Assembly (NCBI GenBank): GCA_927407015.1
Contig: CAKMJT010000016.1
Coordinates: forward strand, 62,001 to 126,000
Direction: 5' to 3'
Length of the DNA: 64,000 bases
Source of the DNA: an uncultured Proteiniphilum sp.
GTDB lineage: Bacteria > Bacteroidota > Bacteroidia > Bacteroidales > Dysgonomonadaceae
A program made the position numbers and the translations under genes. This document shows positions 39,230 to 58,883 of this stretch, piece by piece. How positions within the stretch are numbered: position 1 is the first letter of the stretch; each line of letters begins with the position of its first letter. Below the pieces are notes generated by a model. It made no database searches and had not been told where the DNA came from. It saw only the letters and a list, made by a program, of their open reading frames with translations.

Positions 39230-41152
39230 TTATTCCGTTGGGATCACCTGCCTGATGTTTCCATCATCATCGAACTCCATTTTATCGATGCATACCTCCC
39301 GGTGATAGCCCGGCCCGTTGTTCAATGAATGCTTGTTGATCCGGTGGTAGACGATATACCACTCATCCTTTCCGGGAATCTGCAACACCGAATTGTGCCC
39401 GGTTCCGTAAATACCCCTTGCTTCATCTTTCATGATGACGATATTGTTGTCAGGGATATGCAGAGGCCCCAGTGGTGATGTAGCGGTGGCATAACGTACC
39501 TTGTAGTTCGGGCTGCCGGTATCATCTTCCGACCAGAGAAAGTAATATAGACCGTTCCTGTAAAACAGGTTAATTGCCTCCCTGAAGGTGTGATCGGGCG
39601 TCATCTCTTTTACGGTTTCCCTCTTTATGGAAACCATATCTTTATTTAGCTCGGCACCTGCCATGTAGCCATTGCCCCAATAAATGTAGTTCTTTTTGCT
39701 TACCGGATCGAAAAAGAGGTCAGGATCGATCTCCTGTCCGTCCTTTACTCCTTCAGGCTTGAAGTCGATCAGTGGTTTTCCTGAATCAACAAAAGGTCCG
39801 GCGGGATGGTCTGCAACTGCTACTCCTATTTTCTTGGGCTCTCCATTCTTTCCTCCGCTGAAGTAATAATAGTATTTGTATTTGTTTCTGCCTGTTTTTT
39901 TCTCGATAATGGTTGGAGCCCATGCATTTTCGTCGGCCCACGAGACATCTTTCAGGTCCAGGATCACCCCCTCATCTTTCCACTCACTGAGATCCTCCGA
40001 TGAGAATGCTTTGAAGTAGTACCCTCCCCATCCCGGAAAACCATCGCTGGTAGGATAGATGTAATATTTACCGGTTTGCTCTGAATAGAGCACCTCCGGG
40101 TCAGCATAATATCCGGTCAGTACAGGGTTTTGATTGGTTGGTATCTTAAATCCTTCGGGTACTCCCCATCTACCGGTGATGGCTTCCAGCTCTTTTTTCG
40201 TGATTGGAATTATGCTCCCGTGCCGTGGCTTGAAATCCATGCTGATCTCGTGATCAATCACCTTGAAATTATCGAGATCCACGCTTTCACAGAACTGGTA
40301 TTCACCCCTGCCATATACATCATAGAGCAAGATGTATTTTTCCTGATTAGCCAGTTTAAAGACAGAGGATCCTTCCACTGCATGGCGGGTCTGCTGTTTG
40401 TAGTCGGGCTGCTCAATCCAGCATCCTGAAGTGAGGTTATCCGTCATGGCTTTCCTGATGCCGTTTCCATGTCCCTCGGTTTTGTAAAACATATGGAATA
40501 TCCCGTTCTTGTAAATGATATCGCCATCGATGGAGGATTTTCCGTTTTTCGGGAAGAAAAGTTGTTTGGGCGTCCCCTCCAGGTCGGTGAAATCCTCATT
40601 GGCATAGGCGTAATGGATGATATCCGGTCCATTCCCGTGCTGCATCGACCAATAGACCATGTACTTCCCGGCATGTGGGTCGTATATGGTTTGAGGCGCC
40701 CATACCCGTTTCAGCTCTTCTTGTCCCGGGTATTTTTTCTGGATGTTGATCACCGAAGAGCTCCAGTTGACCAGGTCTTTCGATTTTAGGAGTACCATTC
40801 CACGGTTAGAGTCCCATCCTTTCGACGAAGTCATATCAGTTACTACCATGTAAAAGGTTTCCCCATCCTGGGCCCTCAAAATATGCGGATCCCTGACTCC
40901 TCCTGTTTCACTGATTTCTTTCGAATCAATCACTGGTTGGTCGTTGTTGAGCGCTCTGTAGTGATAGCCATCGAGGCTGACTGCGAAGCAAATCTGCTCT
41001 TGTTCCACATTGTTCCCGTGAAAATAGGTAAAAAGATAAGCCACATAATCTTTCTCGGCTATATTTGGTGCATAGCCCTCGCCGGCTCTAATGCCTGTCC
41101 AAATTGCAGCAAAAGATATTATAATGGCGGTATAATTGAATCGTTTACTCAT
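39230..41152 (-). CDS. Tandem GH43 glycosidase (two five-bladed propellers)
   Basis: The ATG at 41152 gives 640 residues beginning with a signal-like segment (Met-Ser-Lys-Arg-Phe-Asn to Gly-Ile-Arg-Ala); the frame reaches back to 41227 but then overlaps the GH2 stop. Two GH43 propellers follow. The first has Arg-Asp-Pro-His (base), Ile-Asp-Gly-Asp and Val-Glu-Gly-Ser (acid). The second has Tyr-Ala-Asp-Pro-Glu, Glu-Ile-Asp-Pro-Asp-Leu and Arg-Glu-Ala-Ile-Asn, so both could be active. The protein is a close paralogue of the C-terminal part of the GH127/GH146 fusion in the arabinan locus and shows what that gene lost. GH43 enzymes of this kind are usually alpha-L-arabinofuranosidases or beta-xylosidases; arabinose removal from arabinogalactan fits the context. 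Confidence 0.85.
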   Translation of the reverse strand: MSKRFNYTAIIISFAAIWTGIRAGEGYAPNIAEKDYVAYLFTYFHGNNVEQEQICFAVSLDGYHYRALNNDQPVIDSKEISETGGVRDPHILRAQDGETFYMVVTDMTSSKGWDSNRGMVLLKSKDLVNWSSSVINIQKKYPGQEELKRVWAPQTIYDPHAGKYMVYWSMQHGNGPDIIHYAYANEDFTDLEGTPKQLFFPKNGKSSIDGDIIYKNGIFHMFYKTEGHGNGIRKAMTDNLTSGCWIEQPDYKQQTRHAVEGSSVFKLANQEKYILLYDVYGRGEYQFCESVDLDNFKVIDHEISMDFKPRHGSIIPITKKELEAITGRWGVPEGFKIPTNQNPVLTGYYADPEVLYSEQTGKYYIYPTSDGFPGWGGYYFKAFSSEDLSEWKDEGVILDLKDVSWADENAWAPTIIEKKTGRNKYKYYYYFSGGKNGEPKKIGVAVADHPAGPFVDSGKPLIDFKPEGVKDGQEIDPDLFFDPVSKKNYIYWGNGYMAGAELNKDMVSIKRETVKEMTPDHTFREAINLFYRNGLYYFLWSEDDTGSPNYKVRYATATSPLGPLHIPDNNIVIMKDEARGIYGTGHNSVLQIPGKDEWYIVYHRINKHSLNNGPGYHREVCIDKMEFDDDGNIRQVIPTE

Positions 41153-41216
41153 ATAGTTGATGGGTTGATCGATGATATTTCTGAAAAAACTGTTCCATTG
41201 CACCGGTTGCACACCG

Positions 41217-43712
41217 TTATTCAGCATATAGCGTAACTTCGTCCGGTTCCAGCCAGGGAGAGGTGAAGTTAATTTTTATTTCACCCTCCTCACCGGTGGC
41301 CTGCACATATGCCAGTATACGGCCGTGATACACACGATGCCGGTTATCGGTATAATCGCTCATATCTGTATTGTTGCTTGCTTCCAGGCCAAGCAGCTTA
41401 GCCGGTCCGGAGATACGGCAGGTCACCTCGTTGTCTGACAGCATCACCGGTATGCCATCTTCATCCACCACTTGCAGCACGATCTGAGCCAAACCGCTCT
41501 CTTTGTTTATCTCTTTCTCAGCTTGTACGATCTGTAAGGCATGAGGGCGTTTCGATGTCTGTATGGCATAGCCTGAAACGGGCTTGTTATCACCATCCAT
41601 TCCCACCACTTCCAGTTTACCGGCTTTATAGGAAATATCCCAGAAAATGATGCCGGTATTGTCGTCATATTCTTTTGTCTGACCCACCTCTACGCCGTTG
41701 AGCAATAACTTTGCTTTCTCTGCATTGGTATAGCATACCACCCGGATCGATTGCCCTTCACGATAGTTCCAGATGGGCCATGCATCCATGGAGGGCACTC
41801 TTTCCATGTAGTTGGATTCGCTCCCTGCTTCGGTTTGCGACAATACATCTCTCGACTGGCTCCGGGCTCCACTTCCCGGTGTGGGGTAGGTGCCCAGGTA
41901 GGCCATCGGCTTTTCAGACCACAACGACTGTCTGAAATATCCTCTCGGCTTGATGAATCCGCCGAAGTCGAGCAGTCCCGAATAGAAGCCTCTCGAAGGC
42001 CATCTGCCCGATTCCCCCAGGTAATCAATCCCTGTCCAGAGAAACTGGCCAAAAATAAATTCCCTGTCGCGCGTATCTTTCCATGCAGCCATATCGTGCC
42101 TGTTTTCACTTCCGTAGATCACCCGGTCGGGATACTTCTCATGATCACTGTCGTACCTGTCTTCCGTGTAGTTATACCCCGCGATATCCAGTGCACCTGG
42201 GTATTCGGTTTCGTTCGACATGGCCACACCGGCAAGACCGGCAGTCACGGGGCGTGCCTGATCGTAGGCTTTTACCACTTTCGCCAGGCGTTTAGCGATA
42301 ACACCCAACTCCATTGCATTGGGTGCATCGGGGTTATATCCGCCGTAGGAAGCTTGTGTAAATCCTGCTTTTTCTCCTCCGAGTACCGGATGTGAATAGG
42401 GGTCGTTCGGATAATCCACCTCATTGCCGATGCTCCAGGCGAAGACAGAGATATGGTTGCGGTCGCGCCGTACCAGGTCGGCCAGGTCAATATCGCCCCA
42501 CTCCTTGAAAATATCATATGATCCCTGAAAGCCGGCGGTACCCACGTTCCATCCTTCCAGCCACTTTCGCTTGGGATACTCCCATTCATCATACATCTCG
42601 TTGATCACCAGGATACCCAACTCGTCGCAGAGGTCATACAGATCGGGTGCCTGCGGGTTGTGGCTTGTACGGATGGCATTCACACCAATCTCTTTCAGCG
42701 TTTGTAGGCGTCTTTTCCATACATCTCGCGGAACTGCTGCCCCAAGGACGCCGGCATCGTGGTGCATGCAGATACCTTTCACCTTCATCCACTCCCCGTT
42801 AAGCGCAAACCCTTTGTCCGGGTCGAAAGTGTAGGAACGGAATCCCGTACGGGTAGCAGACTGATCTATCACAGTTTTCCCTCTCAGCACGGTCGTCTTC
42901 AACTCATACAGATTGGGGTCGGTCAGAGACCAGAGTGCAGGTTTATTCACTTTTAAAGAGGTTTTCAGTTTGTTCTCACTGCCCGGTTTCGCGACCAGCT
43001 TTTTAGACTCTTTTGCCACCAGTTTTCCTTCCGGGGAGAACAATTCATTTACAACGGTTAATGAGGCATTGCTTTTTTCTTCGTTGTGAATATTCACCTC
43101 CACGTTCAGCCTGTAACCGTTTTTCACTTTTTCCGGATAGACATAAACCCCCCATTGGGCAATGTGCACCGGGTTGGCATATATCATCCAAACATTACGG
43201 TAAATGCCGGAGCCGGTGTACCATCGTGAATCGGCATGCTGGCTGTGATCGACCCGCACGGCAATCATATTTTCCTCTCCGTATTGAATGTAGGGTGTGG
43301 CATCATACATAAAAGAGATATACCCGTTAGGACGCTTGCCAAGAGATTGCCCGTTCAGGAATACTTCGCTGCGGTTATAAATTCCCTCGAAATAGAGATA
43401 TACTTTTTGTCCCTGTTTGTCGGCTGGAATATCAATTGTTTTACGGTACCAGCCGATGCCTCCCGGCAGGTAGCCCGTACAACTGGCAAGCGTAGGGCTT
43501 AACTGGCCTTTTACGCTCCAATCATGGGGTAACGATATCTTTTGCCATCTTGTGTCGTCCAATGTAACCGATTGTGCGTCCTGCACATCGCTCAGGATAA
43601 ACTTCCAGTTTTCATTGATCTTTTCCGGCTTGCCAAATGAGACCTGTGCCCGGAGAGATGGGGCAATGCACATAATCAGTAAAATAACGATTGACAGAGT
43701 TTTTTTTCGCAT
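41217..43712 (-). CDS. GH2 beta-galactosidase-type enzyme
   Basis: The ATG at 43712 gives 831 residues with a signal peptide (Met-Arg-Lys-Lys to Leu-Arg-Ala-Gln); an upstream ATG at 43760 lies inside a likely promoter. Domains: sugar-binding jelly roll (about 30-190), Ig-like linker (about 195-300), TIM barrel (about 305-600), then DUF4982-like and C-terminal Ig-like domains. Glu431 in Ser-Ile-Gly-Asn-Glu-Val-Asp-Tyr is the acid/base and Glu536 in Tyr-Gly-Ser-Glu-Asn the nucleophile. Trp-Thr-Gly-Ile-Asp-Tyr-Leu-Gly-Glu is a family signature. Predicted exo-beta-galactosidase acting on galactan fragments; beta-glucuronidase activity cannot be excluded from sequence alone. It follows the three-enzyme gene by 150 bp and leads to the tandem GH43 gene. 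Confidence 0.88.
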   Translation of the reverse strand: MRKKTLSIVILLIMCIAPSLRAQVSFGKPEKINENWKFILSDVQDAQSVTLDDTRWQKISLPHDWSVKGQLSPTLASCTGYLPGGIGWYRKTIDIPADKQGQKVYLYFEGIYNRSEVFLNGQSLGKRPNGYISFMYDATPYIQYGEENMIAVRVDHSQHADSRWYTGSGIYRNVWMIYANPVHIAQWGVYVYPEKVKNGYRLNVEVNIHNEEKSNASLTVVNELFSPEGKLVAKESKKLVAKPGSENKLKTSLKVNKPALWSLTDPNLYELKTTVLRGKTVIDQSATRTGFRSYTFDPDKGFALNGEWMKVKGICMHHDAGVLGAAVPRDVWKRRLQTLKEIGVNAIRTSHNPQAPDLYDLCDELGILVINEMYDEWEYPKRKWLEGWNVGTAGFQGSYDIFKEWGDIDLADLVRRDRNHISVFAWSIGNEVDYPNDPYSHPVLGGEKAGFTQASYGGYNPDAPNAMELGVIAKRLAKVVKAYDQARPVTAGLAGVAMSNETEYPGALDIAGYNYTEDRYDSDHEKYPDRVIYGSENRHDMAAWKDTRDREFIFGQFLWTGIDYLGESGRWPSRGFYSGLLDFGGFIKPRGYFRQSLWSEKPMAYLGTYPTPGSGARSQSRDVLSQTEAGSESNYMERVPSMDAWPIWNYREGQSIRVVCYTNAEKAKLLLNGVEVGQTKEYDDNTGIIFWDISYKAGKLEVVGMDGDNKPVSGYAIQTSKRPHALQIVQAEKEINKESGLAQIVLQVVDEDGIPVMLSDNEVTCRISGPAKLLGLEASNNTDMSDYTDNRHRVYHGRILAYVQATGEEGEIKINFTSPWLEPDEVTLYAE

Positions 43713-43757
43713 GCGATTATTCGTTTGAATTGGATGAATAGTGAATAGAAGTTTTGA

Positions 43758-43765
43758 CAAAGGTA
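43758..43765 (-). promoter_or_regulatory. -7 promoter box upstream of the GH2 gene
   Basis: The minus strand reads TACCTTTG, an exact TAnnTTTG match, placing transcription start near 43751 and a leader of about 39 nt to the ATG at 43712. No -33 TTTG is seen. It suggests the GH2-GH43 pair can be transcribed apart from the large gene upstream. Confidence 0.4.
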
Positions 43766-43863: not shown

Positions 43864-46800
43864 CTATTTTTGCTGATACACCCGCACATAATCGATCTCG
43901 TAATGCAGGGGAAATGCCGTATCGTCGGGTGTACCGCCGTGTTGTCCCCCGATTGCCAGGTTTAATAACAGATAATGAGGTTGTTTAAACGGATTTTTAA
44001 ACTCTCCCAATGAACCATTGATGGTTTTTGACAGAAGTGTTTCGTTCAGCAGCTCACCATCCAGATACAGACGGATGGCCCCTTCATCCCAATCCATGCG
44101 CCAGATATGGAATTTATCCGCCCAGTAGGGATCCTGATTGGTGAAATGGGTAAAGGGTATGGCTGAGCTGTCCCATTTGGCGTTCCATCTTTGTTCTGTT
44201 CCCCACGCTGCATTGGCCAGTATATGGGGTTCACCGTTGATACGGTAGTACTCCATAATATCAATCTCCCCGTTGGAGGGCCATTCCATCTCCTTCCCCA
44301 GCGTCCAGATGGCGGGCCATGACCCTCCGGCAGTGGGTATCTTTGCTCGTATTTCGAAACGTCCGTATTGGAACTCCTTTTTACCCTGGGTTTTGATAGA
44401 TGACGAGGTGTATTCGATTTGTGTTCTTTCCTTTCTCCAGTCGCTGCTTCCCTGCTCATAGAGCGGATTGTCGCGTTGGTCCCTGCGCGCCGTAATAGTC
44501 AACATACCGTTACTGCATGCTGCGTTGTCTTCCTGATACCATTGCAACTCATTGTTGCGTACAAAACCCTCTTCAAATGACCAAACGTTGCTGTCCGGTG
44601 ATCCGTCTGTATTGAATTCATCGCTCCATACCAAATTATACCCGTCATATACCTCAGCTCCTTTCCTGTCAGGCTGCAGTTTGTCAAAAATATCCAGCGA
44701 CCAGTTGTCCATCCATTTAAGCAGAGGATAACCATTTTCAAACAGGACAGGGAGCCATATGTACCGGCTGTCACCCAAATTGTCGGGTCTCCATCGGTCG
44801 GCCATAAAGATAAACGAATCTTTTTTTCCTGCTACCGGAAGAATATATGTTCCCTGTGACGCAAAGGTGCGATGGGCCCCTCTTCCTCTTGCCGGGTTGG
44901 GTATAATTGTCCATTCGCCCATGATGTTGTCTGCCACCAGTAGTCGTGCTGCGTTAGGTTCCCATCCTGTGCATCCCGATGTGATCATGAAATAGCGGCC
45001 ATCTTTTTTGAATATTGCAGGTGCTTCGTTGTGTCCGCCCGGCGCAACGCGAATGTAACGGCCTGTATGGTTTAAATAATCATCCGTCAATTCGGCAATA
45101 TGCAATGTCAGATTCTCTTCGGAAGCATAAATGTGGTACGCTTTTTTGTCGTCATCTACAAAAAGAGTCATATCGCGCGACATCTGCCCTCCCCGGAAAT
45201 CGTGACGGACAAACATACCTTTCTCAATTTCCTTTCTCCACTCCGGAGTCCACCATTCCGGGAAATCACTTAATTTGACAGACAATTGCTGTTCTTCCTT
45301 TGTCATGTTCACGGGCCAGTGTCCTGCATTTACTCTGGAAGATTTAATATAGGTAAAAGGACCTGCGGGAGAATCACTGATTGCCACACCAAACTGTGCA
45401 GCAGCATATCCCTGCCCTTTCAGCTCAAGGTGGAAGTACATGACGAATTTATCGGTCAATTCATTGTATATTACTTTGGGTCGCTCTATGATACAGCCCT
45501 TTACGATAGGGCTATTTTTGTCTTCTGATAATGGCAGCACAACACCTTCGTTTTTCCAGTTGTAGAGATCCCGGGATGTGTAGCACATCACGCCTTCTTC
45601 CGTGATATACCCTTTACTAGGCCGATGTTCACCGTACCAGTACCAGGTACCGTCATGGTAGAGGATACCACCTCCATGGGCATTGATATGTTTTCCCTGG
45701 TCGTCTCTCCGTACTGCACCGGGTGTAAAGGAGGTTTTTGATTGGACATATTTTACCCGCTCCGATGCCGCGAGTAAAAAAGCTCCAACGCCAAAGTCTT
45801 CGGTAGTCTGCGGGCCTACATTTTTATGCTGATTGGCTCTCTCGCCGATAGGTTGCACATACCCAACTTTTCCATCGTCCTGCAGAGCGATTGTGGTAAG
45901 ATATTTCCATCCGCTTTCTACAACAGGTGAGAACTCTTTTTCTTCGAGAAGGCCGTTATTGATTCCCCATAAGAAGCCGTAAACAAAGAATGCGGTACCA
46001 CTGGTCTCGTATCCCGGAGCATGTTGAACATCCAGTATGCTTCTGGACCAGTATCCTTCTTCCTGCTGCGATGCTTTTAAAGTTACGGCCATCGATTGAA
46101 ACATTTTCACATATTCATTGCGGTGCGGATTGTTCTCCGGCAGGTCCTGCAATACTTTGGCTAATCCGGCAAAGACCCATCCGTTTCCGCGTGCCCAGAA
46201 ATCCTTCTTTCCGTTCGCCGTTTGATGTTTCGGATAAATATATTTAGCATCCCTGTAAAACAGACCTGCCTCATCATCGTACATCAGCTCTTTCGCATAC
46301 CTGAAATAGTCATATAATTTGCTTAGATAGAGCTCATTTCCTGTGATTTTGTATAACTTAGTCATCACCGGCATCACCATATAAAGACCGTCGGCCCACC
46401 ACCAGTAGTCGTTCCGGGGTGTGCTCATCTGATACTCCATCACCTCTATTGCGCGGGCAATCTTGAGATCATCCGGATTTACATTGTACAGATCTGCATA
46501 TACCTGAAAACAGGTTTGCCAGTCGCCAAAAAGCACATACTCATCCGATTCTCCGTAAGAATATTTCCACTGACTGCGATCGTTGGATTTCGCCCCTTTC
46601 CACTCGTTATGCCTTGCCCACGCTTCAGAAAAATCAAGATATCGTTTATCCCTGGTTACCTCATACGCGGCCATATTTCCGGTATGATAGGCCGCATGAT
46701 GCCAGAAGGCATTGCCATGTTCAGGATGAGTGGATTGCCAGTAATCATTTGCTTTTTTGATTGTGGCGATGATTGTAGTCTGTTCAACAGGTACTGCGGA

Positions 46801-46917
46801 ATTGTTAGCGTTTCTTTTCTCCCATACAGTTACTGAATTGCACGTATATATTGATACAAAGACTGTACACAAAAGAGATAATATAATTTTATTACGCATA
46901 CAAACAGTGTTATTCAC
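43864..46917 (-). CDS. Three-enzyme fusion: GH105 unsaturated uronidase, GH43_24-type galactosidase, GH16 endo-galactanase/glucanase
   Basis: A 1017-residue exported protein (numbering from 46917; an ATG at 46899 is equally possible and begins a better signal peptide). Residues about 50-390 are GH105: Trp-Trp-Trp-Ala-Asp-Gly with catalytic Asp176, and Ala-Arg-Gly-Asn-Gly-Trp. Residues about 397-750 are a GH43 domain starting His-Gly-Gly-Gly-Ile-Leu-Tyr-His-Asp-Gly, with Glu478 (Ile-Glu-Arg-Pro-Lys), Glu631 (Asn-Glu-Ala-Pro), Ser-Gly-Cys-Thr-Gly-Trp, Gln688 and no usual base Asp, as in subfamily GH43_24 exo-beta-1,3-galactanases. Residues 758-1017 are GH16 with Glu-Ile-Asp-Ile-Met-Glu (nucleophile Glu884, acid/base Glu889). 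Together these would cut the galactan backbone and remove 4,5-unsaturated uronic acid from type II arabinogalactan. The gene follows a strong terminator after susD and begins a separate enzyme operon. Confidence 0.88.
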   Translation of the reverse strand: MNNTVCMRNKIILSLLCTVFVSIYTCNSVTVWEKRNANNSAVPVEQTTIIATIKKANDYWQSTHPEHGNAFWHHAAYHTGNMAAYEVTRDKRYLDFSEAWARHNEWKGAKSNDRSQWKYSYGESDEYVLFGDWQTCFQVYADLYNVNPDDLKIARAIEVMEYQMSTPRNDYWWWADGLYMVMPVMTKLYKITGNELYLSKLYDYFRYAKELMYDDEAGLFYRDAKYIYPKHQTANGKKDFWARGNGWVFAGLAKVLQDLPENNPHRNEYVKMFQSMAVTLKASQQEEGYWSRSILDVQHAPGYETSGTAFFVYGFLWGINNGLLEEKEFSPVVESGWKYLTTIALQDDGKVGYVQPIGERANQHKNVGPQTTEDFGVGAFLLAASERVKYVQSKTSFTPGAVRRDDQGKHINAHGGGILYHDGTWYWYGEHRPSKGYITEEGVMCYTSRDLYNWKNEGVVLPLSEDKNSPIVKGCIIERPKVIYNELTDKFVMYFHLELKGQGYAAAQFGVAISDSPAGPFTYIKSSRVNAGHWPVNMTKEEQQLSVKLSDFPEWWTPEWRKEIEKGMFVRHDFRGGQMSRDMTLFVDDDKKAYHIYASEENLTLHIAELTDDYLNHTGRYIRVAPGGHNEAPAIFKKDGRYFMITSGCTGWEPNAARLLVADNIMGEWTIIPNPARGRGAHRTFASQGTYILPVAGKKDSFIFMADRWRPDNLGDSRYIWLPVLFENGYPLLKWMDNWSLDIFDKLQPDRKGAEVYDGYNLVWSDEFNTDGSPDSNVWSFEEGFVRNNELQWYQEDNAACSNGMLTITARRDQRDNPLYEQGSSDWRKERTQIEYTSSSIKTQGKKEFQYGRFEIRAKIPTAGGSWPAIWTLGKEMEWPSNGEIDIMEYYRINGEPHILANAAWGTEQRWNAKWDSSAIPFTHFTNQDPYWADKFHIWRMDWDEGAIRLYLDGELLNETLLSKTINGSLGEFKNPFKQPHYLLLNLAIGGQHGGTPDDTAFPLHYEIDYVRVYQQK

Positions 46918-46974
46918 TAGCTCATTCTAAAGTAAATTGATGGAGGAACTCTTCAGTTTCAATTTTTAAAACAA

Positions 46975-47008
46975 AAGAGAGTTCAGAAAAGCTTTTCTGA
47001 ACTCTCTT
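46975..47008 (-). terminator. Rho-independent terminator after susD (module B)
   Basis: A near-continuous perfect inverted repeat, arms 46975-46991 and 46992-47008 (17 bp, minimal loop around AAGCTT), begins about 45 nt after the susD stop. In the minus transcript it is followed by TTGTTTT. It separates the susC-susD transcript from the three-enzyme gene, so the latter needs its own promoter or read-through. Confidence 0.78.
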
Positions 47009-47053
47009 CCGTGAATTCAAATTCGAATTTGCTAAGTGGATTGATTTACATCA

Positions 47054-49078
47054 TTAATACCCGATAGGTCCTTGCCCACTTTCTGTTGGCCATCCCGGAT
47101 TCTGATAGATCGGGGATGTGGATGGTGTCTGACCATCTTCTGCGGTATCCAGAAAATGTTCTAATGCAATAGGATCCAGATAATGTGCTTCAGTAAAGAA
47201 TAATCCATCGTAGAAGTTATTGTTGGTGACAACCACCTGGAATGGCCTCATATACAGACTGAGATTGGGGGAAGACATCGTGTTCTTGGTGGGGTTGGAT
47301 TGATCAGCGAGTAACACTCCTTCTCCATATCGATCCTTCATAGGACCCCATACCTTACATCCTTCAATCTGAAAACCGTTCAGCTGATCCATTGCCCTCC
47401 AGCGAATCAGGTCGGCATAGCGGAATCCTTCATTCATCAGTTCTGAACGACGTTCACGACGGATATTATAGAGTGTGGGATCAATGAGCACACCTTTTGA
47501 ATAAGCACCCCAATCGTTCTTACCTTCGATACTCATATCAGTTGCAGCGATGGTTTTGTTGTAATCGGGATCCACCCCGGCACGTGTGCGGATGGTTCTC
47601 CAGTATTTGTCAGCTTTGCTGTCGATGGTTCCGCTTTTCATATAAGATGCTTCCATATATATCAGATAGGCTTCCACCGCACGAAAGATGACAGCGGCAG
47701 TTACATCCTTTTCCAATACCTGGTTATTATAATCGTGAGAAAAAGCTTTTCCCAACATATAACCGGTTGATGTAGACCATTTCACGTCGGTACTGTAAAT
47801 CACGGGGGCATTGGGAAAATATTCCAAAGTATTGGTATTTATGAAAGCTTTCACTTCATTGGGAGCTTTCATAAAGAGCTTCCAGCGCCAGTCGCGATCA
47901 ATCTTGGTATCTTCAATGAAATCATCCCCTGCATAAGCGCTACCCGGTGCGTAGACAGGAAGACCGTTTGCCATCAGTTGGTTCTGTTCCATCTGGTGGG
48001 TGAAGCCGCTTTGTGCACCATGATAGTTTCTGTGATTGTAGGAGTGGGTGCTCAATCCATCCACATAACCACGATACATCAGCACCTCGGCGTACTTGGA
48101 CGGATCAACCGTCGCAAACATATCGTAGTATGGATTGATGGGTTGTGCTGTTGATTCACGAATGATCTTGTTATTCTCCACCAGAGGGATTACAGAAGCG
48201 ACCTGGTCGGCAGCAGCCATTGACTGGGTTAGGAAGAAATCAATCTCGCTCTCAAGACTACCGCCGGGGAACTGATAGGAAGCATCGCCCGGCCATCCGT
48301 TACCTTTGGGTACCAGAGCCGTGCCTGCATGGTATTTCAACCAGGATGCTTCAAAGAGAGCCACACGTGCCTTCAGCAAAAGCGCTACATTCTTAGTTAT
48401 TCTTTGCTTGGTAACATTGTTGTTTAACAGGCCAATGGCTTTGTCCAGATCGCTCAGGATGAAACGTGCGACCTCATTGCGTGGCTGACGAACCGAAGCG
48501 GCAACCAGATCTTCCTTGATATCAGGCAATGTTTGGGTGATAATAGGGAAATCGCCCAGCTTGCGCAAACGGAAGAAATACTCATGTGCACGCAGGAAAT
48601 AGCCTTCACCCACGTAATGGGATACCATGGTAGGATTACCTTTCAGTTCTCCTGCCTCGAGTCTGGGTGCCACGGTTTGCAGGTAGTAGTTCAACGCATA
48701 GATGTTACTGAAATTCCAGAATCCTCCGGTCGTACCTGTGCGCCATAATCCCGGTTTAAATCGATCGTTCGTGGATCGGGTGATTGCATTGTCTGTAGCA
48801 TCGTCATCACGATAGAATGACTCACTTCCTCCTCCCAGATGGCTGGGTATCATGCCACCGGCAGTGGCACTGTTCTGGTTCCAGCTGCCATACTCTGCAT
48901 AATATCTTAACGTATACGCAGCCATCTGATCTTCCGATAAAAGATAGTTCTCAGGTGAGATCGATGATGGGGGAGCGATTTCAAGGAAATCGTTACACCC
49001 TGTCACCGACACGATAAAAATGCAAATAAGAAATGCTTTGATTGAATGGGTATATTTTATTTTTTTCATTGTATTCAC
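47054..49078 (-). CDS. SusD-like outer-membrane lipoprotein (module B)
   Basis: A 674-residue SusD/RagB-family lipoprotein, longer than the other two. Lipobox Ser-Val-Thr-Gly-Cys28 follows the signal peptide; an ATG three codons downstream is also possible. Family motifs include Gly-Tyr-Phe-Leu-Arg-Ala-His-Glu-Tyr-Phe-Phe-Arg-Leu in the helical region and Glu-Arg-Arg-Ser-Glu-Leu-Met-Asn-Glu-Gly-Phe-Arg-Tyr-Ala-Asp-Leu-Ile-Arg-Trp near the C-terminus. It lies 3 bp after its susC partner. With HTCS3 divergent from susC, it forms module B, proposed to import arabinogalactan fragments. Confidence 0.95.
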   Translation of the reverse strand: MNTMKKIKYTHSIKAFLICIFIVSVTGCNDFLEIAPPSSISPENYLLSEDQMAAYTLRYYAEYGSWNQNSATAGGMIPSHLGGGSESFYRDDDATDNAITRSTNDRFKPGLWRTGTTGGFWNFSNIYALNYYLQTVAPRLEAGELKGNPTMVSHYVGEGYFLRAHEYFFRLRKLGDFPIITQTLPDIKEDLVAASVRQPRNEVARFILSDLDKAIGLLNNNVTKQRITKNVALLLKARVALFEASWLKYHAGTALVPKGNGWPGDASYQFPGGSLESEIDFFLTQSMAAADQVASVIPLVENNKIIRESTAQPINPYYDMFATVDPSKYAEVLMYRGYVDGLSTHSYNHRNYHGAQSGFTHQMEQNQLMANGLPVYAPGSAYAGDDFIEDTKIDRDWRWKLFMKAPNEVKAFINTNTLEYFPNAPVIYSTDVKWSTSTGYMLGKAFSHDYNNQVLEKDVTAAVIFRAVEAYLIYMEASYMKSGTIDSKADKYWRTIRTRAGVDPDYNKTIAATDMSIEGKNDWGAYSKGVLIDPTLYNIRRERRSELMNEGFRYADLIRWRAMDQLNGFQIEGCKVWGPMKDRYGEGVLLADQSNPTKNTMSSPNLSLYMRPFQVVVTNNNFYDGLFFTEAHYLDPIALEHFLDTAEDGQTPSTSPIYQNPGWPTESGQGPIGY

Positions 49079-49081
49079 TTT

Positions 49082-52000
49082 TTAGAAACCAACACTAACA
49101 CCAAACGATAAGGTTTTCGATAACGGATAAACCGTGCCACCCTGTCTACCGACACCTGCTGTTTCAGGATCCATCACCGTGGCCATTCTCGTTAAAGTTA
49201 AAAGGTTCTCACCTGAAACGAAAAGACGTACATTCTGTAATTTAATCCTGTTCACCATATTCTGCGGGATTGTATAACCTATCATCATGTTCTTCAGTCG
49301 CATATATGATGCATCCTGCAAATATTTGCTCTGAATATTCTGATTCTTGCCACTAAATAATGGACGGGGATAGTAGGAGTCAAGGTTTTGGCCGAAAGGA
49401 TGATTTTCATCTGCCCTGAAATAATCGAGATGATCCTTCAAGGCTGTTGACCACCATTGTCCGCCGCCATTGGCACCCCAGAATACCATTCCGGTAGGAT
49501 AAAAATCACGCTTCAATACTCCCTGCCAGAACATTGAGAAATCAAATCCTTTCCAGGACATATCAAGATGAATTCCGGTAAGATAGCGGGCATGATTATT
49601 GCCCAACAGTTTTTTATCCCCCATATTATCGAGTGAGTTGTTACCCTCGTTGATTTTTCCGTCATCATTGAGATCGGCATACATGATGTCACCTGCAGTC
49701 CAGTTAGAACCCAATGCGCTCTGACCACCCTCTGGCAGTGAAGCAAGGTGATCCTGCATCTCCTGGTCTGTTTTGGCAATGCCAATTGTCTCATAACCAT
49801 AGATGTTCCCGATAAGCTCACCTGCAATATAGGAACCCAGGTTTTTAGTAGGGTTGGCATACCGGTCGATACGGGTTCTTGAGTCAGCCAGATTGAATTT
49901 CACACCATATTTGAAATTACTTATCTGATCTCTCCATCCCAGTTCCAGCTCCCATCCGAATGTAGTCAAGTCGGTATTGTTGGTTGCAGGAACACCCGTT
50001 CCGAGAATTAAAGGAAGCTTTACAGCCTGTCCTACCATATCACGGGTTTCTCTTACGAAATAGTCAAAAGATCCGGTCAATCGGGAGTTCATTGCGGCAA
50101 AATCAACACCCAGATTGGTGTTAAACACCTTTTCCCATGTAAGTGTCGATGATACCAACCCGGGAACGGTAGCTGTGTTCATTCTGGCGCCGTTAATCAG
50201 CCAACGGCTATTGCTGGATCCTGTTGACATTGTCATATAGGTTGGATACCAGTTAGAAGTATTCTGGTTTGCCAGCGCACCATAGGATGCTCTAACCTTG
50301 AGCATCTGAATCTGATCAGTCAGACTGCTGAAGAAATCTTCGTGAGCTATATTCCAGCCCACAGACAAAGAGGGGGTATATACCCATCGTTGATCGGCAC
50401 GATAACGGGATGATCCGTCGTAACGAAGGTTGGCCTCCAACAGATACCTGCCCATATAATCATAATTTAAACGGCCGAAGAAACCGGCTGTTGCCCAGTT
50501 CTGATAGTTTCCTCCTATCTCAGGAGCTGAATTGGTTGTAAGATCGAGAATCGGTTGATCGGGATTGATCAGATCTTTCCTCTGTGCCTGCAATTGTCTC
50601 TGTTTTAGCTGTTCTGCCTGGAATCCTCCAAGAATAGTAAAATTATGGTCATTCAGACTGAATTGATAGTTGGAGTAAATATTCGGATTCAGGAAGGTTG
50701 ATCTGTAGGAGTACTCATGCACCTGATTCTGTGTGCTACCGGTAGTAGGAGGCACATAGGTATTCTCGGGATTGTCGGCGAAGTGAGAATAGGTAATCTG
50801 CTGATCCCAGTGAGTCCAATCATTGTCGGTCCTGTAGTTCATCTCACCAATAATATTCCAGTCTTTCAGCGGTGTAAAGGTCAGTTTGAACTGCTGATAC
50901 ATCACATCATTCTGTTCCTTGTGACGGCCACCGTTTTCCATTGCCTCAATGTAATTATTGTCTGACATGTTGAACCCATTGGGATCGTTGATAGAACGGG
51001 TGGGGCGTGCACGACGAAGTATATTGTCATAAAAACCGTCATTCCATGAAGATGGTCTTCCGAACTCAGTACGTGCATAACGGTTTGAGTAATCTGCTTT
51101 CAGGTATTCTGTCAGTTGAGCCGATATCTTTGCTGTGATATTGTAACGGTTAAACTCATCGGTACCGTATCGCATAAACCCTTCCTGATCGAGCATGTTG
51201 CCTGATACATAGTAGGTCCATTTTTCATCACCGCCGCTTATGCTTACATTGTGTTCCTGCGATGGAGACCAGTCCTTGTAGTACTCTTTCATCCAGTCGT
51301 GATTTCCGTTAGACCAGTCGTAGTTCCATTTGGCCCCATTCCTTCCGGTTCCATCCTTACTCCACATCACATCATTGGGATCGAGTTTACCATCGTAATA
51401 ATCCTTTACCTTCTGCATGTAGGAGATATCGGGATACCAGTGGTTGTTGGAACCATTGAAGTTGGCATCATCAAAGTAATTCACAAATTCCCATGAATTC
51501 ATCATCTCGGGCATATGCACAGGTGTGTTGAAACGGAAACTGTTATTATAGTTAATCACAGGACGTCCCTTTTTTCCCGATTTGGTGGTAATAAGGATCA
51601 CGCCAAACGGAGCTCTTGAACCATAAATAGAGGAAGCTGCCGCATCTTTCAATACCGATACAGATTCAATATCCTGTGGGTTAATATTGTTAATATCACC
51701 TTCCATCCCATCAATGAGTATAAGGGGACTGCCACTCGTATAGTTGTTTGCACTTACGGTACCTGTACCTCGTACATTGATTGATTTGGTTGCATTCAGT
51801 TCCCCTCCGTTCCCTCTGTTGGTTATATTCAAACCCGGAACCACACCCTGCAAGGCTGAGACAGCATTTTGCACAGGTCTTGCCTCGAAGTCCTCTGCGG
51901 TGGCAACACCAACGGCACCGGTAAGATTGACTTTCTTTTGCACACCAAATCCTACTACCACCACTTCGTCCAGCAGTTCTGTGTCTTCCTGCAGGACTAC

Positions 52001-52303
52001 ATTCAGCACAGTTCTTCCGTTTAATTCAATTGTTTGTGAATTCATCCCCACATATGAAATGACTAACGTTGCTCCTGCTGGTACACCGGACAACACATAA
52101 TTACCATCCATGTCTGTAACGGTTCCGATGGTTGTTCCATGTACCTGGACTGTCGCACCAATTAGTGGCTCGTTTCCCTGATCTGTCACTGATCCTCTTA
52201 CAGATATGTTTTGTGCAAGTACAGTTAGGGAAAACGTCCACAACAGCATAAACATGATCCCCTTTGATAGATTTAAAATTTTCTCTCTCATTTCACTTTT
52301 CAT
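49082..52303 (-). CDS. SusC-like TonB-dependent transporter (module B)
   Basis: The ATG at 52303 (or 52291) gives about 1073 residues; the longer frame to 52357 adds an AT-rich non-signal stretch. Features: signal peptide ending Leu-Ala-Gln, carboxypeptidase-regulatory-like domain with Gly-Asn-Glu-Pro-Leu-Ile-Gly-Ala-Thr-Val, TonB-box region Leu-Asp-Glu-Val-Val-Val-Val-Gly-Phe-Gly, plug with Leu-Ile-Asp-Gly-Met-Glu-Gly and Leu-Lys-Asp-Ala-Ala-Ala-Ser-Ser-Ile-Tyr-Gly-Ser-Arg-Ala, and a 22-strand-type barrel ending Gly-Val-Ser-Val-Gly-Phe. It heads a two-gene susCD operon closed by a strong terminator and transcribed divergently from HTCS3. Confidence 0.95.
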   Translation of the reverse strand: MKSEMREKILNLSKGIMFMLLWTFSLTVLAQNISVRGSVTDQGNEPLIGATVQVHGTTIGTVTDMDGNYVLSGVPAGATLVISYVGMNSQTIELNGRTVLNVVLQEDTELLDEVVVVGFGVQKKVNLTGAVGVATAEDFEARPVQNAVSALQGVVPGLNITNRGNGGELNATKSINVRGTGTVSANNYTSGSPLILIDGMEGDINNINPQDIESVSVLKDAAASSIYGSRAPFGVILITTKSGKKGRPVINYNNSFRFNTPVHMPEMMNSWEFVNYFDDANFNGSNNHWYPDISYMQKVKDYYDGKLDPNDVMWSKDGTGRNGAKWNYDWSNGNHDWMKEYYKDWSPSQEHNVSISGGDEKWTYYVSGNMLDQEGFMRYGTDEFNRYNITAKISAQLTEYLKADYSNRYARTEFGRPSSWNDGFYDNILRRARPTRSINDPNGFNMSDNNYIEAMENGGRHKEQNDVMYQQFKLTFTPLKDWNIIGEMNYRTDNDWTHWDQQITYSHFADNPENTYVPPTTGSTQNQVHEYSYRSTFLNPNIYSNYQFSLNDHNFTILGGFQAEQLKQRQLQAQRKDLINPDQPILDLTTNSAPEIGGNYQNWATAGFFGRLNYDYMGRYLLEANLRYDGSSRYRADQRWVYTPSLSVGWNIAHEDFFSSLTDQIQMLKVRASYGALANQNTSNWYPTYMTMSTGSSNSRWLINGARMNTATVPGLVSSTLTWEKVFNTNLGVDFAAMNSRLTGSFDYFVRETRDMVGQAVKLPLILGTGVPATNNTDLTTFGWELELGWRDQISNFKYGVKFNLADSRTRIDRYANPTKNLGSYIAGELIGNIYGYETIGIAKTDQEMQDHLASLPEGGQSALGSNWTAGDIMYADLNDDGKINEGNNSLDNMGDKKLLGNNHARYLTGIHLDMSWKGFDFSMFWQGVLKRDFYPTGMVFWGANGGGQWWSTALKDHLDYFRADENHPFGQNLDSYYPRPLFSGKNQNIQSKYLQDASYMRLKNMMIGYTIPQNMVNRIKLQNVRLFVSGENLLTLTRMATVMDPETAGVGRQGGTVYPLSKTLSFGVSVGF

Positions 52304-52743
52304 TAGTTTAAATTTATAGAAATTTATTATATTATTTATTTGTTTTGTCACGGTCATGATTCGTGCGGACTTACAGCAACAGCATATTTTTCACCTGATT
52401 GAATCATACAAAGCGATTCCATTCTTACCGGTTTAACAAGGAGAACAGGATCATAAGGTGCTTTTAGTCATGTTTTCATGATTTCACTTAGTACTTTTCC
52501 ACGAATGGGAGAGTAGACGCTGCGTACTGTTCCGGTAGATCGATGAGCACATTGAAACGTTAACAAAAGTAAGAATGAGCGATGAGATTCAACTCTAATT
52601 ATCACTAAAAAAGGGAGAAAATCAAAAAAGCGTTCTCTTTTTAACACGACGAACGATGTCGAGAAATTAATCAAAGGCATTATTGGTTGTTTTGTTTTTA
52701 ATTAGCATGGACATTGCTTATTTTTGTCATAAATAATATTTGA
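52304..52743. promoter_or_regulatory. Divergent promoter region between susC (module B) and HTCS3
   Basis: A 440 bp AT-rich region. On the minus strand TACTTTTG at 52571-52564 is an exact -7 match, giving susC a leader of about 250 nt. On the plus strand TATTTTTG at 52719-52726 is an exact -7 match for HTCS3, with TTTG at 52691-52694 upstream at a 24-base gap. Layout and leader lengths resemble the other divergent region at 34758-35138. Confidence 0.45.
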
Positions 52744-55700
52744 ATGAAAGACTCTCAGTTCTCATTGGATTCTATTTGTATGCGGCTATCTGCATTTCTC
52801 TTACTGTGCCTTTTCACAGGGATGGTGTATTCCGGGCAACAGCAGACGCTATCGGTATTGAACTTTAAAGTACTGAGTACCTCTGATGGCTTTCCCAATA
52901 ATGAAATTCAGAAAGTCTATCAGGACAGGGAAGGATTTATGTGGTTTGCCACCCGCAATGGATTGTGCAAATACGATGGTTATCAGATTACTGTATACAA
53001 CACTGATCCGTTGAAACACCATCAGCTCTCGGGTAACAACATCATGTGCCTCACTGATGACCACAAGGGAAACCTCTGGATCGGAACGTTTAACGGCATA
53101 AACCGTTTCGATAAGACAACGGGAAAATTTGAGCAGGTTGAGATACAAAACAGTACTTCCAAGTCGGTGGCCTGCATGTTGATAACAAAGGGAAACAGTA
53201 TACTGATTGGGATGGATGACGGATTATTTGTGTATGATCCGCAAAAAAACATCTTTGTGCATCACAGTCTGCGAAATATGGGAGATGAACGGATCAATGC
53301 TCCGGTTAAGTCACTGATGGAAGATGAGGAGGGTGAAATATGGATTGGCACGTGGAACAGTGGTTTGTTCAGATTTGCACCCTCTCAGAACGTGATATAC
53401 AGCTATCCGAAACTAAATCCACGCAATTCTGCACATGTGATCTATCAGGATAGTAAACAGCATATCTGGGTAGGTACGTGGGAAGGAGGATTGCATCTTT
53501 TGGAGAACCCGAAGGATATGAAGCGTTTCCGGTGGAAATCATACGTGCATGATCCACATGATCCCGCCAGTTTGCTGGATAATATTGTCTATGACATTTG
53601 TGAGGACATTCATACAAATTCCTTGTGGGTGGGAACACGCAGTGGTCTAAGCATTCTGGAATATGACAGACCGGATGCATTTATCAATTACAGTGCCACA
53701 CTTCCGACAAATAAGCTTCCCGGCAATGAGATCAACTCCATTCTCAGTGATCACGATGGTAACATCTGGCTGGGTTCCATTGGAGGAGGTGTGATGTTCA
53801 CAAATACCGAAAAACCCAAATTTAAATTATTCGACGTCAATCTCCCGGAAATGCCTACAGGGGCTATTCGCTCGATTCTGATGGATGAAGAGCGGAATAT
53901 GTGGCTGAGCATTGGTACCTATGGGATTGTATATTATGACAATAATTCTCAAATGATTACGTCACAATTTGAATTGCCGGAATTTCGGGAAATGAAGCAA
54001 AATACAACGTATGATATCAAACGGCTTAACAACAATGAAACAGTGTTTGCAACCTATGGCGACGGACTTTGGGTCTACGAAAAAGGAAAGCCTGTCAGAA
54101 TATTTACTACCCGGAACAGCAATTTTATCAGTGACGACAGGATCCGATGTCTGTATGAAGATCGGCAAAATAATTGCTGGATTGGCACACAAAGCGGCCT
54201 GGGGGTTCGGTTCAATGATGGTACCGGTGCAACATTCGGAGAGATCATCGTGAATGGAGAACATCTGGAAAGTACGAGTATGATTGACATCACACAAGAT
54301 AAAGCAGGGAGAACATGGATTGCCTCTATCAATCATGGGATCATCGCCATGGAAGGTAATCCCCGCTATCCCGCTTCAATAACCTGGAAAAATTACACCA
54401 TCGCGAATAAAAAAATCTCATCCAACACTGTGATTTCTCTTTTTTTAGATCGATCAAACCGTTTATGGGCAGGAGCAGAAAGTGGTAAACTTTACCTCTA
54501 TGATGAAAAAACGGACAGTTTTACCGATAAATCACCCCGCTTTTCCATTTTGGGGAACACCATCAGTTCTATTCAGGAAGATAGCCGCGGAAATCTGTGG
54601 ATCGGTACCAACAAAGGGCTTGCCCGGTTGTCGTTCAACGATCGGGGTGAGCTGGGCGAATACCGCATTTACACCACAGCTGACGGTCTTCAGGATAATT
54701 TTTTTATTCCGAAATCCTCGTTCAACCACTATGGAGAGCTGTTTTTCGGCGGATATAAGGGGTTGATCTATTTTTTCCCGGAGCAGATCGATACCCACAT
54801 CGGTCAAATCCCTTTCTACATTACCGATATTCAAATATTCAACCAATCATTTTCGAATCAACCGCCGGAAACGGCTAGCCGTATTTCGGAAAAAACGGCT
54901 CCTTTTACCGATAGAATTACCATCTCCCACAAATACAACAATTTCAGCATTCACTTTGCGACGCTGAACTATAAAAACCCGGAACTGAATAAATATGCCT
55001 ATAAGCTGGAGGGATTCGATGACGAATGGCGTTTTGCCGATTCCAAACAAAACGCAGCGCATTACAACAATCTCCCCGCGGGAAGATATACCTTTTTATT
55101 GCGGGCAACTACCCACAACGGTGTGTGGAATGATGCCGTGAAAGAACTGAAAGTTACTGTATTGCCTCCTGGATGGCTCTCCTGGTGGGCAATGTTGATT
55201 TACCTTTGCCTTCTTGCATTCATCGGATATGCCATTTATCAGAATATCGTAAACCGCATTCATCTCCGTAATCAATTGAGATACAAAGAGATAGAACAGA
55301 TGAAAGCGGAAGAGCTGAATCGTGCCAAACTTCAGTTTTTCACGAACGTGACCCATGAGTTTTTAACTCCTCTGACGATTATCTCTGCCACTGTAGACGA
55401 GTTACAACTAACTGCACACCGTAAAGACAACCTGTATCAGACGCTGACACGAAATATCAACCGGCTTACACGCCTGTTGCAACAGATTCTGGAATTCAGA
55501 AAAGCAGAATCCGGGAATCTTAAACTTCGTGTGTCATACGGGAATATTTCCCAATTTATCAAAAAATCCACCGATTCATTTTATCCGTTGATCAGAAAGC
55601 GGAAGATTCATTTCTCCTACGTGAGTGATCCGGAACATATCCAGGGGCTGTTCGATACCGATAAACTTGATAAGATCCTTTACAACCTGATCTCCAATGC

Positions 55701-56886
55701 CGCCAAATATGTGAACGAAGGAGGCACCATACAATTAACGCTGACATATCTGGACGAAACCAGAGATCATATCCGCATTTCCGTGAAGGACGATGGCGCC
55801 GGCATCCCGAAAGAAGATCAGCAGTCTCTGTTCCAGCGGTTCTATGAAGGTGATTACCGGCGCCATCATACTACGGGAACGGGCATCGGACTCTCACTGG
55901 TCAAAGACCTTGTCACCTTGTCTCACGGCACAATACAAGTGGAGAGTGATCTTGGGAAAGGGAGCGAATTCACGGTAATCCTCCCTGTTGACACCTCTTA
56001 TTTTGAAGATTCAGAGATTGATTCCCACAGTTCTGATTACATTCAATCTCCGGCCATGGATGATGCTGACACAAAAACAGAAGAAAAGAATAGCACAAAG
56101 GATCAGAAAAAATCGTCCTCCATATTGGTTGTAGAAGATAATGAAGAGATTTTGCAACTTATTCAACGGTTATTAAATAAGGAATATCATGTTTTTACGG
56201 CAATGAACGGAAATGAGGCCAGGCTGGTATTGGAACATGAGAAGATTGACCTGATCGTATCGGATATCATGATGCCGGAGATGGATGGCATTGAGTTATG
56301 CAAAATATTGAAAAATGATATCGAGTATAGTCATATACCGATTGTCCTGTTAACAGCAAAAACTGATGAAAGAGATCGGGCAGTAGCCTACGAATCGGGG
56401 GCTGATGCATTCATCAGTAAGCCATTTAACATGAATGTGCTTCATGCCCGCATCAAAAACCTGTTGAAAAGTCGCGAACGCATGGCGGCTGATTTTAAAA
56501 ATCAACTTGTTTTCGAAATAAAAGATCTGAATTTTACCAATCTCGATGAAGAATTTTTACAGAAAGCGATCGATTGTGTAAACAGGCATCTGGGTGATTC
56601 CGATTTCGACCAGCAGCAGTTCTCAGATGAGATGAACGTGAGCAAATCTACCCTCTATAATAAATTAAAGACTCTGACCGGATTGAATACATCGGCTTTC
56701 ATTACAAATATCCGGATGAAAGCAGCTTGCCGGATCATGGATCAAAACCACGCTATCCGTATCTCGGACCTTGCATACAGTGTAGGTTTCAATGATCCGA
56801 AGTATTTCAGCTCCTGTTTTAAAAAGGAATTCAATATGCGACCGAGTGAATATATCGAGCGGTTTTCAGGGTCCGTAAATACGTGA
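52744..56886 (+). CDS. Hybrid two-component system regulator (HTCS3)
   Basis: A 1380-residue HTCS from the ATG at 52744; an in-frame ATG at 52780 begins a more typical signal peptide and may be the real start. Domain order: periplasmic propeller repeats (Met-Trp-Phe-Ala-Thr, Leu-Trp-Ile-Gly-Thr, Ile-Trp-Leu-Gly), Y_Y_Y sandwich (about 730-800), membrane helix about 812-832, histidine kinase around His871 in Thr-His-Glu-Phe-Leu-Thr-Pro (Leu in place of the usual Arg), ATPase with Asn-Leu-Ile-Ser-Asn-Ala-Ala-Lys-Tyr and Asp-Asp-Gly-Ala-Gly-Ile, receiver with Asp1174, and AraC-type HTH. It is divergent from susC of module B, and its stop lies 14 bp from the stop of the convergent BNR_4 gene. Expected to activate module B and possibly the BNR_4 gene. 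Confidence 0.95.
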   Translation: MKDSQFSLDSICMRLSAFLLLCLFTGMVYSGQQQTLSVLNFKVLSTSDGFPNNEIQKVYQDREGFMWFATRNGLCKYDGYQITVYNTDPLKHHQLSGNNIMCLTDDHKGNLWIGTFNGINRFDKTTGKFEQVEIQNSTSKSVACMLITKGNSILIGMDDGLFVYDPQKNIFVHHSLRNMGDERINAPVKSLMEDEEGEIWIGTWNSGLFRFAPSQNVIYSYPKLNPRNSAHVIYQDSKQHIWVGTWEGGLHLLENPKDMKRFRWKSYVHDPHDPASLLDNIVYDICEDIHTNSLWVGTRSGLSILEYDRPDAFINYSATLPTNKLPGNEINSILSDHDGNIWLGSIGGGVMFTNTEKPKFKLFDVNLPEMPTGAIRSILMDEERNMWLSIGTYGIVYYDNNSQMITSQFELPEFREMKQNTTYDIKRLNNNETVFATYGDGLWVYEKGKPVRIFTTRNSNFISDDRIRCLYEDRQNNCWIGTQSGLGVRFNDGTGATFGEIIVNGEHLESTSMIDITQDKAGRTWIASINHGIIAMEGNPRYPASITWKNYTIANKKISSNTVISLFLDRSNRLWAGAESGKLYLYDEKTDSFTDKSPRFSILGNTISSIQEDSRGNLWIGTNKGLARLSFNDRGELGEYRIYTTADGLQDNFFIPKSSFNHYGELFFGGYKGLIYFFPEQIDTHIGQIPFYITDIQIFNQSFSNQPPETASRISEKTAPFTDRITISHKYNNFSIHFATLNYKNPELNKYAYKLEGFDDEWRFADSKQNAAHYNNLPAGRYTFLLRATTHNGVWNDAVKELKVTVLPPGWLSWWAMLIYLCLLAFIGYAIYQNIVNRIHLRNQLRYKEIEQMKAEELNRAKLQFFTNVTHEFLTPLTIISATVDELQLTAHRKDNLYQTLTRNINRLTRLLQQILEFRKAESGNLKLRVSYGNISQFIKKSTDSFYPLIRKRKIHFSYVSDPEHIQGLFDTDKLDKILYNLISNAAKYVNEGGTIQLTLTYLDETRDHIRISVKDDGAGIPKEDQQSLFQRFYEGDYRRHHTTGTGIGLSLVKDLVTLSHGTIQVESDLGKGSEFTVILPVDTSYFEDSEIDSHSSDYIQSPAMDDADTKTEEKNSTKDQKKSSSILVVEDNEEILQLIQRLLNKEYHVFTAMNGNEARLVLEHEKIDLIVSDIMMPEMDGIELCKILKNDIEYSHIPIVLLTAKTDERDRAVAYESGADAFISKPFNMNVLHARIKNLLKSRERMAADFKNQLVFEIKDLNFTNLDEEFLQKAIDCVNRHLGDSDFDQQQFSDEMNVSKSTLYNKLKTLTGLNTSAFITNIRMKAACRIMDQNHAIRISDLAYSVGFNDPKYFSSCFKKEFNMRPSEYIERFSGSVNT

Positions 56887-58796: not shown

Positions 58797-58883
58797 ACAG
58801 GTAACCTTTATTAGAATCAAGCCAGATAGCAACAGGCTAAATGGCTTGATAATTTTAACTGACAGTTGAAAAGGATATTACCC

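Follow-up and report, generated by a model that had tools for sequence, protein, structure and literature searches.

Does a protein that joins three glycoside hydrolase (GH) families in one chain process type II arabinogalactan by itself, and is such a joining peculiar to one genome or does it recur among relatives? The question is raised by a gene on the reverse strand of a 64,000-nucleotide stretch of DNA (hereafter the window; contig CAKMJT010000016.1, positions 62,001 to 126,000) from an uncultured Proteiniphilum sp., a gut-type bacterium. Arabinogalactan is a plant sugar polymer, arabinogalactan proteins (AGPs) are common in plants, and AGP breakdown has been elucidated largely through individual Bacteroides enzymes. 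A first-pass annotation of the window had read the gene as a self-contained GH105-GH43_24-GH16 arabinogalactan-processing enzyme. We found that the arrangement is real and conserved, and that the architecture, built from known enzyme families, is apparently undescribed; the more surprising part of the finding is that the same modules are recurrently reshuffled among relatives. The gene and its parts are as follows.

43864..46917, reverse strand: trimodular GH105-GH43_24-GH16 gene (Pfam and PDB sequence matches)
46840..46899, reverse strand: signal peptide with a probable lipobox (sequence read by eye)
45739..46791, reverse strand: GH105 module, residues about 43-393, with catalytic Asp176 at 46390-46392 (Pfam, PDB matches and fold)
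44683..45738, reverse strand: GH43_24 module, residues about 394-745, with E478 at 45484-45486, E631 at 45025-45027 and Q688 at 44854-44856 (PDB matches, fold and active-site motifs)
43867..44649, reverse strand: GH16 module, residues about 757-1017, with E884 at 44266-44268 and E889 at 44251-44253 (Pfam, tree and motif)

The gene is a single open reading frame (ORF) of 1017 aa as listed from a GTG at 46917; the ATG at residue 7 (46899), directly ahead of the signal peptide, is the likelier start. Pfam recognised Glyco_hydro_88 (E 1.7e-88, residues 52-390), Glyco_hydro_43 (1.2e-15) and Glyco_hydro_16 (4.1e-13) in that order, and the best PDB sequence matches were 5noa (561 bits, residues 47-393), 6eug (533 bits, 393-742) and, for the GH16 part, 4dfs and 6t2n (139 bits, from residues 757-758 on). 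Module spacing was taken from the ends of the PDB matches, not from manual domain cuts; by this measure there is therefore no linker between GH105 and GH43, and about 14 residues separate GH43 from GH16. The AlphaFold2 model (mean predicted local distance difference test (pLDDT) 86.8, predicted template modelling score 0.76) led to the same three assignments as the sequence, with every module landing on its own PDB family at identities of 66% (5noa), 63% (6euh/6eug), 34% (6t2n) and 30-36% (laminarinase-type chains). Pfam, PDB sequence matches and the fold of the model thus bear out the presence of the three families in one protein. Moreover, the active-site residues proposed by the first-pass annotation (D176, E478, E631, Q688, E884 and E889) are all where it had placed them and are invariant in the modules compared, and all three modules look active, as judged from their sequences. 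The gene is not an assembly artefact, because five other genomes of the genus contain it complete, likewise as a single ORF (73-91% identity). Conservation was counted on modules extracted from the surveyed loci, near-duplicates included.

The evidence for function is strong for the GH43_24 module, which by close homology to BT3683 would be an exo-beta-1,3-galactanase. BT3683, the GH43_24 exo-beta-1,3-galactanase of Bacteroides thetaiotaomicron (6eug/6euh/6eui), is 63% identical and has the same fold and the same Glu/Glu/Gln active site, whereas in the window protein this module is joined to GH105 and GH16. In the excerpt of PMC7939473 consulted, GH43_24 enzymes have a Gln in place of the base Asp, and eight residues of subsite -1 are given. 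Their counterparts here, matched by motif, are E430, E478, R479, Y504, D582, E631, W652 and Q688; seven of the eight are invariant in 78/78 GH43 modules, and Y504 is found in 77/78, the remaining module having an X. E478, E631 and Q688 are each present in 78/78, which upholds the earlier claim that the module lacks the usual base Asp. Indeed, E367, W541 and Q577 of BT3683, as named in the same excerpt (PMC7939473), correspond to E478, W652 and Q688 at a constant offset of 111. The sequence and structural marks of subfamily 24 are found in the module: a Glu for C4-OH recognition, an acid Glu, a Gln replacing the base Asp, and a fold and sequence close to those of proven members.

The family assignment of the N-terminal module as GH105 has good evidence from its sequence: it has the Glyco_hydro_88 profile and the fold of 4ce7 and other GH105 chains, and D176 is present in 101/101 GH105 modules. 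Reckoned from the match start, with gaps uninspected, D176 would correspond to position 143 in 1nc5; Asp143 of YteR we take to be catalytic. The closest solved chain, 5noa ("Family 88 glycosyl hydrolase", in an entry titled BACCELL_00875), is 66% identical over the module and consists of this module alone, against three in the window protein. The proposed reaction, removal of an unsaturated uronide, resembles that of BpGH105 (BACPLE00337), which acts on the unsaturated product made from AGP by a GH145 enzyme, according to the excerpt of PMC8406133 consulted; BpGH105 is encoded by a separate gene, while the window GH105 is fused. Several points weigh against assigning this activity to the module: 5noa is matched by its family label, without a stated activity; 4ce7 (ulvan type), the one GH105 among the listed matches for which an activity is given, is 30% identical; and BpGH105 was likened by description, not by sequence.

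Then, we evaluated how widely the trimodular order is distributed. In the genus (39 genomes including the window's own, 25 with a match at 1e-50; the set includes metagenome-assembled genomes (MAGs) named Fermentimonas and Proteiniphilum), GH105-GH43-GH16 occurs as one ORF in 8/39 genomes, complete in six (G000, G005, G016, G018, G025 and G029) and cut by contig ends in two (G009, which also has a run of N, and G020). The family search (101 genomes, up to 8 candidates scored per genome) returned the same 8 as carriers of this order among matches at 1e-100. In the order search (393 genomes sampled, 2 candidates scored per genome), the window order was found only in its own genome among the matches listed at 1e-120, where G177 and G280 have GH105-GH16-GH43. 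A Prevotellaceae MAG (L030) has the same module order as the window, and a Dysgonomonadaceae MAG (L073) has GH43-GH105-GH16. None of the 393 matching plasmid records had one place covering 80% of the gene.

The fusion survey covered 202 loci, mostly fetched by similarity to the window protein or surrounding such matches, with modules called by score thresholds, so its counts are not frequencies. Fusions were counted from stop to stop only, because the open-frame lengths of the search ran through stops. On this basis, 11 architectures were seen among the 45 distinct proteins (by exact sequence) that combine two or more of the three modules; 12 of these proteins have the complete set. All six pairwise orders occur among relatives: the adjacent pairs are 43-16 (30), 105-43 (11), 16-43 (8), 105-16 (4), 16-105 (2) and 43-105 (2), and the connectors measure 0 to 24 residues by match ends, one being uncountable due to a run of N. 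The two-module GH43_24-GH16 proteins (20 proteins, in Dysgonomonas, P. acetatigenes, B. cellulosilyticus and others) share two modules with the window protein in the same order, but their GH105 is encoded separately or did not turn up in the stretch examined. The earlier remark that no described GH105+GH43+GH16 enzyme was known is uncontradicted: we found no description of the trio in the open-access literature searched, several of the searches being aimed at neighbouring topics. The same literature yielded no paper on the B. cellulosilyticus GH43-GH16 protein. What the first-pass annotation had not seen is that the fusion is recurrent and that the module order varies with lineage.

In the GH43 tree (72 modules, 37/69 inner branches well supported), the 67 modules from complete ORFs require a minimum of 20 architecture changes and 13 changes between fused and single, where ORFs fused only to other domains were scored as single. 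The approximately unbiased (AU) test rejected both a single clade of the genus trimodular GH43 modules (G029/G020 with the rest; p 0.0036) and the grouping of the L030 GH43 with the window's clade (p 0.0006). The groups for these tests were picked after viewing a quick tree, with L015 and L154 placed inside the clade; a result of p 2e-70, in which these two members of the same clade had been left outside, was discarded. L047, L181, L189, L193, L200 and L202 (long-branch, truncated or duplicate) were dropped from the AU tests and from the GH43 change counts. The case for two origins of the trimodular fusion within the genus rests chiefly on GH43. The GH16 tree points in the same direction (unstarred forks of 93 and 90), but the GH105 tree places G029 with G021 among other trimodular rows, with separate GH105 genes interspersed. 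Modules may have been exchanged, or a fused gene may have split.

The fusion could also be neutral, in that neighbouring in-frame genes occasionally lose a stop codon and the modules go on working independently. Short separations of the kind this requires do exist: in G006 the arrangement is partly unfused, a free-standing GH105 gene being separated by about 65 nt from a GH43-GH16 gene downstream, after which come the GH2 and GH43 genes known from the window, and in L117 a single in-frame stop keeps the GH105 frame apart from the GH16 frame. We consider this rather unlikely in view of the 45 distinct fusion proteins in 11 architectures and all six pair orders, and of the at least 20 architecture changes on the GH43 tree. 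That relatives join the same three enzymes repeatedly and in different orders suggests instead that keeping them together is useful. The L117 arrangement (L117:1450-3534, the two frames in phase and one stop codon apart) looks like a fusion caught shortly before it forms or shortly after it has come apart. G089, a candidate GH105-GH16 fusion, was rejected as two ORFs with one stop between them.

The specificity of the GH16 module has to be weighed between beta-1,3-galactan and beta-1,3-glucan. The module has the GH16 fold and the E-x-D-x-x-E catalytic motif, with E884, D886 and E889 in 65/65 GH16 modules, and on moderate evidence from its sequence it is likely to be an endo-beta-1,3-galactanase. 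With 6t2n, presumably near the endo-beta-1,3-galactanases and 34% identical, it has in common the catalytic motif, W871, W879 and a long loop before YTS; a loop shared with 6t2n at about residues 817-835 is gapped in the laminarinases of the same alignment. When 65 modules and four references were placed in one tree, the three laminarinases among the references split from the rest (starred support of 97), leaving 6t2n on the side of the window protein. The module could instead be a laminarinase-like beta-1,3-glucanase, or an enzyme for another beta-galactan or glucan, which would make the whole a mixed-substrate protein. Several observations count for this and against a galactanase: sequence scores are alike for the laminarinase 4dfs and for 6t2n (142.8 and 142.6 bits) and the folds nearly so; the 6t2n branch in the tree is very long (2.27); the 65 modules were chosen by similarity to the window protein, so the grouping is partly built in; the references are three laminarinases and 6t2n, none of them labelled endo-beta-1,3-galactanase; and the pattern for the shared loop matches 37/65 modules. 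The identity of 6t2n with Amuc_0724, through which the likeness reaches the galactanases, is our inference. The excerpt of PMC7419316 consulted places Amuc_0724 near endo-beta-1,3-galactanases and also states that GH16 has no conserved way to tell glucose from galactose. Set against the glucanase reading are the tree, the loop and the genomic company, since in many loci the GH16 modules of the clade adjoin GH43_24 and GH105 or form one protein with them, and we regard it as improbable. Given the score tie, the long branch and the partial loop, the endo-beta-1,3-galactanase assignment is therefore likely but unproved.

The signal peptide and the genomic neighbourhood bear on where the protein acts; the main features of the neighbourhood in the window are the following.

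52744..56886, forward strand: hybrid two-component sensor/regulator (HTCS), divergent from susC
49082..52357, reverse strand: SusC-like TonB-dependent transporter
47054..49078, reverse strand: SusD-like lipoprotein, directly upstream of the trimodular gene
41217..43760, reverse strand: GH2 protein, next downstream of the trimodular gene (highest-scoring NCBIfam family beta-galactosidase GalA, with 556 bits against a cut-off of 900)
39230..41227, reverse strand: GH43-type protein after GH2; its N-terminal domain resembles an alpha-arabinofuranosidase (91 bits against a cut-off of 500), its C-terminal domain is GH43
56901..58832, reverse strand: BNR_4 protein with a LamG-like C-terminus (Pfam and homologue context)
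431-28635: arabinan-type cluster with GH127-GH43, GH51 twice, araBAD-like genes, GH97, GH43, SusCD and HTCS

At the trimodular locus a susC/susD pair, an HTCS and carbohydrate-active enzyme genes occur together, as in a Bacteroidota polysaccharide utilization locus. The order susC-susD-trimodular gene-GH2-GH43 is found in the window and in G029; G005 has the trimodular gene, GH2 and GH43 behind a different SusC-like gene, and G018 has susC-susD and the trimodular gene with no window-type GH2 alongside. As a point against the proposed function, G025 and G016 carry the trimodular gene with examined flanks that lack window-type susCD, GH2 or GH43. In its own genome (94.7% complete) the protein is the only close GH43_24 match, and its next closest GH105 and GH16 matches have 34% and 45% identity. 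A hairpin lies between susD and the trimodular gene (46966-47012, reverse strand; 19 pairs, T-rich 3' side, -25.8 kcal/mol, z -6.4); it could be an attenuator or a transcript-end protector, which would lower the trimodular product relative to SusCD, and it is absent from the output of a consensus terminator scan. The arabinan-type cluster contains another fusion, a GH127 with GH43/GH32-like C-terminal domains (431-4072, reverse strand).

Cys26 is the candidate lipidated residue, and a Cys is also there in the five other complete genus orthologues. Under the lipoprotein export signal rule, surface export goes with an acidic run following the lipobox Cys. Read by eye, 0/6 complete genus orthologues have D/E at +2 to +5, while the SusD of the cluster has C-N-D-F-L-E; a lipobox Cys without acidic +2 to +5, taken with this rule, suggests that the protein is a periplasmic lipoprotein. 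Many two-module relatives outside the genus have ordinary signal peptides by eye. An enzyme exposed on the surface and making the first cut on polymeric arabinogalactan would fit the probable endo module and a gene that follows susC-susD. Such a role is reportedly that of BT0264, presumably a GH16 enzyme near the endo-beta-1,3-galactanases. The lack of acidic residues in all six orthologues speaks against a surface location, although the export rule is applied to this family by analogy; we deem this location the less favoured one, at odds still worth keeping in mind, and retain the periplasmic one.

The term self-contained proved too strong, since the lyase or dehydratase that makes the unsaturated uronide, and the removal of arabinose and beta-1,6-galactose, lie outside the protein; the latter two steps presumably fall to neighbouring gene products, for instance the GH2 and GH43 proteins. 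Excerpts of two sources name makers of the uronide: one is a GH145-type lyase (PMC8406133), and GH154 enzymes are proposed to be dehydratases making unsaturated glucuronate for GH88/GH105 (PMC12269599, 2025). The nearest candidate source of the GH105 substrate is the BNR_4 protein, possibly an unrecognised lyase family. Its homologues adjoin GH105 (L020/L048, L076 and L078), and B. cellulosilyticus has one joined to GH105 in a single protein (L183). It had no PDB match by sequence, its predicted model was poor (pLDDT 55), and it matched GH145 weakly (BLAST E 0.043, hhalign probability 2.3%); in this weak alignment, H113 and Y167 stand opposite GH145 H101 and Y154 (chain positions 90 and 143 by match ends), which we take as a lead. 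The window's BNR_4 is the only one in the genome and is not a close GH145, and the single DUF2264 of the genome is on another contig.

Other relatives join GH105 to a different partner. Nine GH105-DUF2264/GH154 junctions were found (L054, L057, L058, L059, L060, L064, L065, L069 and L164), eight by Pfam and one, L054, by phmmer only; the DUF2264 of L065 scores 738 bits to 8oi4 and 411 bits to 9o4u ("Beta-D-glucuronic acid dehydratase"). These proteins (e.g. L059, L060 and L065) share the GH105 family with the window protein and differ from it in a partner that belongs to the proposed dehydratase family; by analogy they would unite maker and user of the unsaturated sugar, which fits the 2025 proposal, as excerpted, that GH154 dehydratases prepare the substrate for unsaturated uronyl hydrolases (PMC12269599). 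In L071 the fusion partner of GH105 is a GH145 protein, and in L061 it is GH51. Further joinings seen in the survey are a four-enzyme ORF, GH127-GH16-GH105-GH154, of at least 1580 aa with its 5' end cut (L058:1-4740), GH43_24 joined to an alpha-L-fucosidase domain (L167:2534-4912), and GH43_24 after a beta-helix domain (L066:17560-20184).

The target proposed at the outset, type II arabinogalactan, is supported. The trimodular protein would be secreted, probably lipid-anchored, and work on type II arabinogalactan fragments brought in by the adjacent SusC/SusD. By close homology to BT3683, the GH43_24 module would take galactose, bare or carrying a beta-1,6 side chain, off non-reducing ends; judging from family and gene company, the GH105 module would strip from side chains the unsaturated glucuronate caps made by another protein, and the GH2 and GH43 proteins encoded beside the trimodular gene would complete the breakdown of the oligosaccharides. 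Since relatives keep the same partners while varying their order freely, we infer that the most likely benefit of joining is to supply the modules in equal amounts and at one place. Taking all these steps jointly, we consider this the probable explanation, with appreciable room for error in its parts.

A bolder reading, which we put forward tentatively as doubtful, is that arabinogalactan breakdown in Bacteroidota has been selected for a physical linkage of GH105, GH43_24 and GH16, together with GH154-type dehydratases and GH145-like lyases. The modules would then be a kit, fused repeatedly, independently and in any order, and the window protein a periplasmic machine whose close packing hands capped oligosaccharides between active sites. 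With a natural three-activity enzyme and several natural alternatives to its order, one could readily test if joining makes the work faster and if the order of the modules makes a difference.

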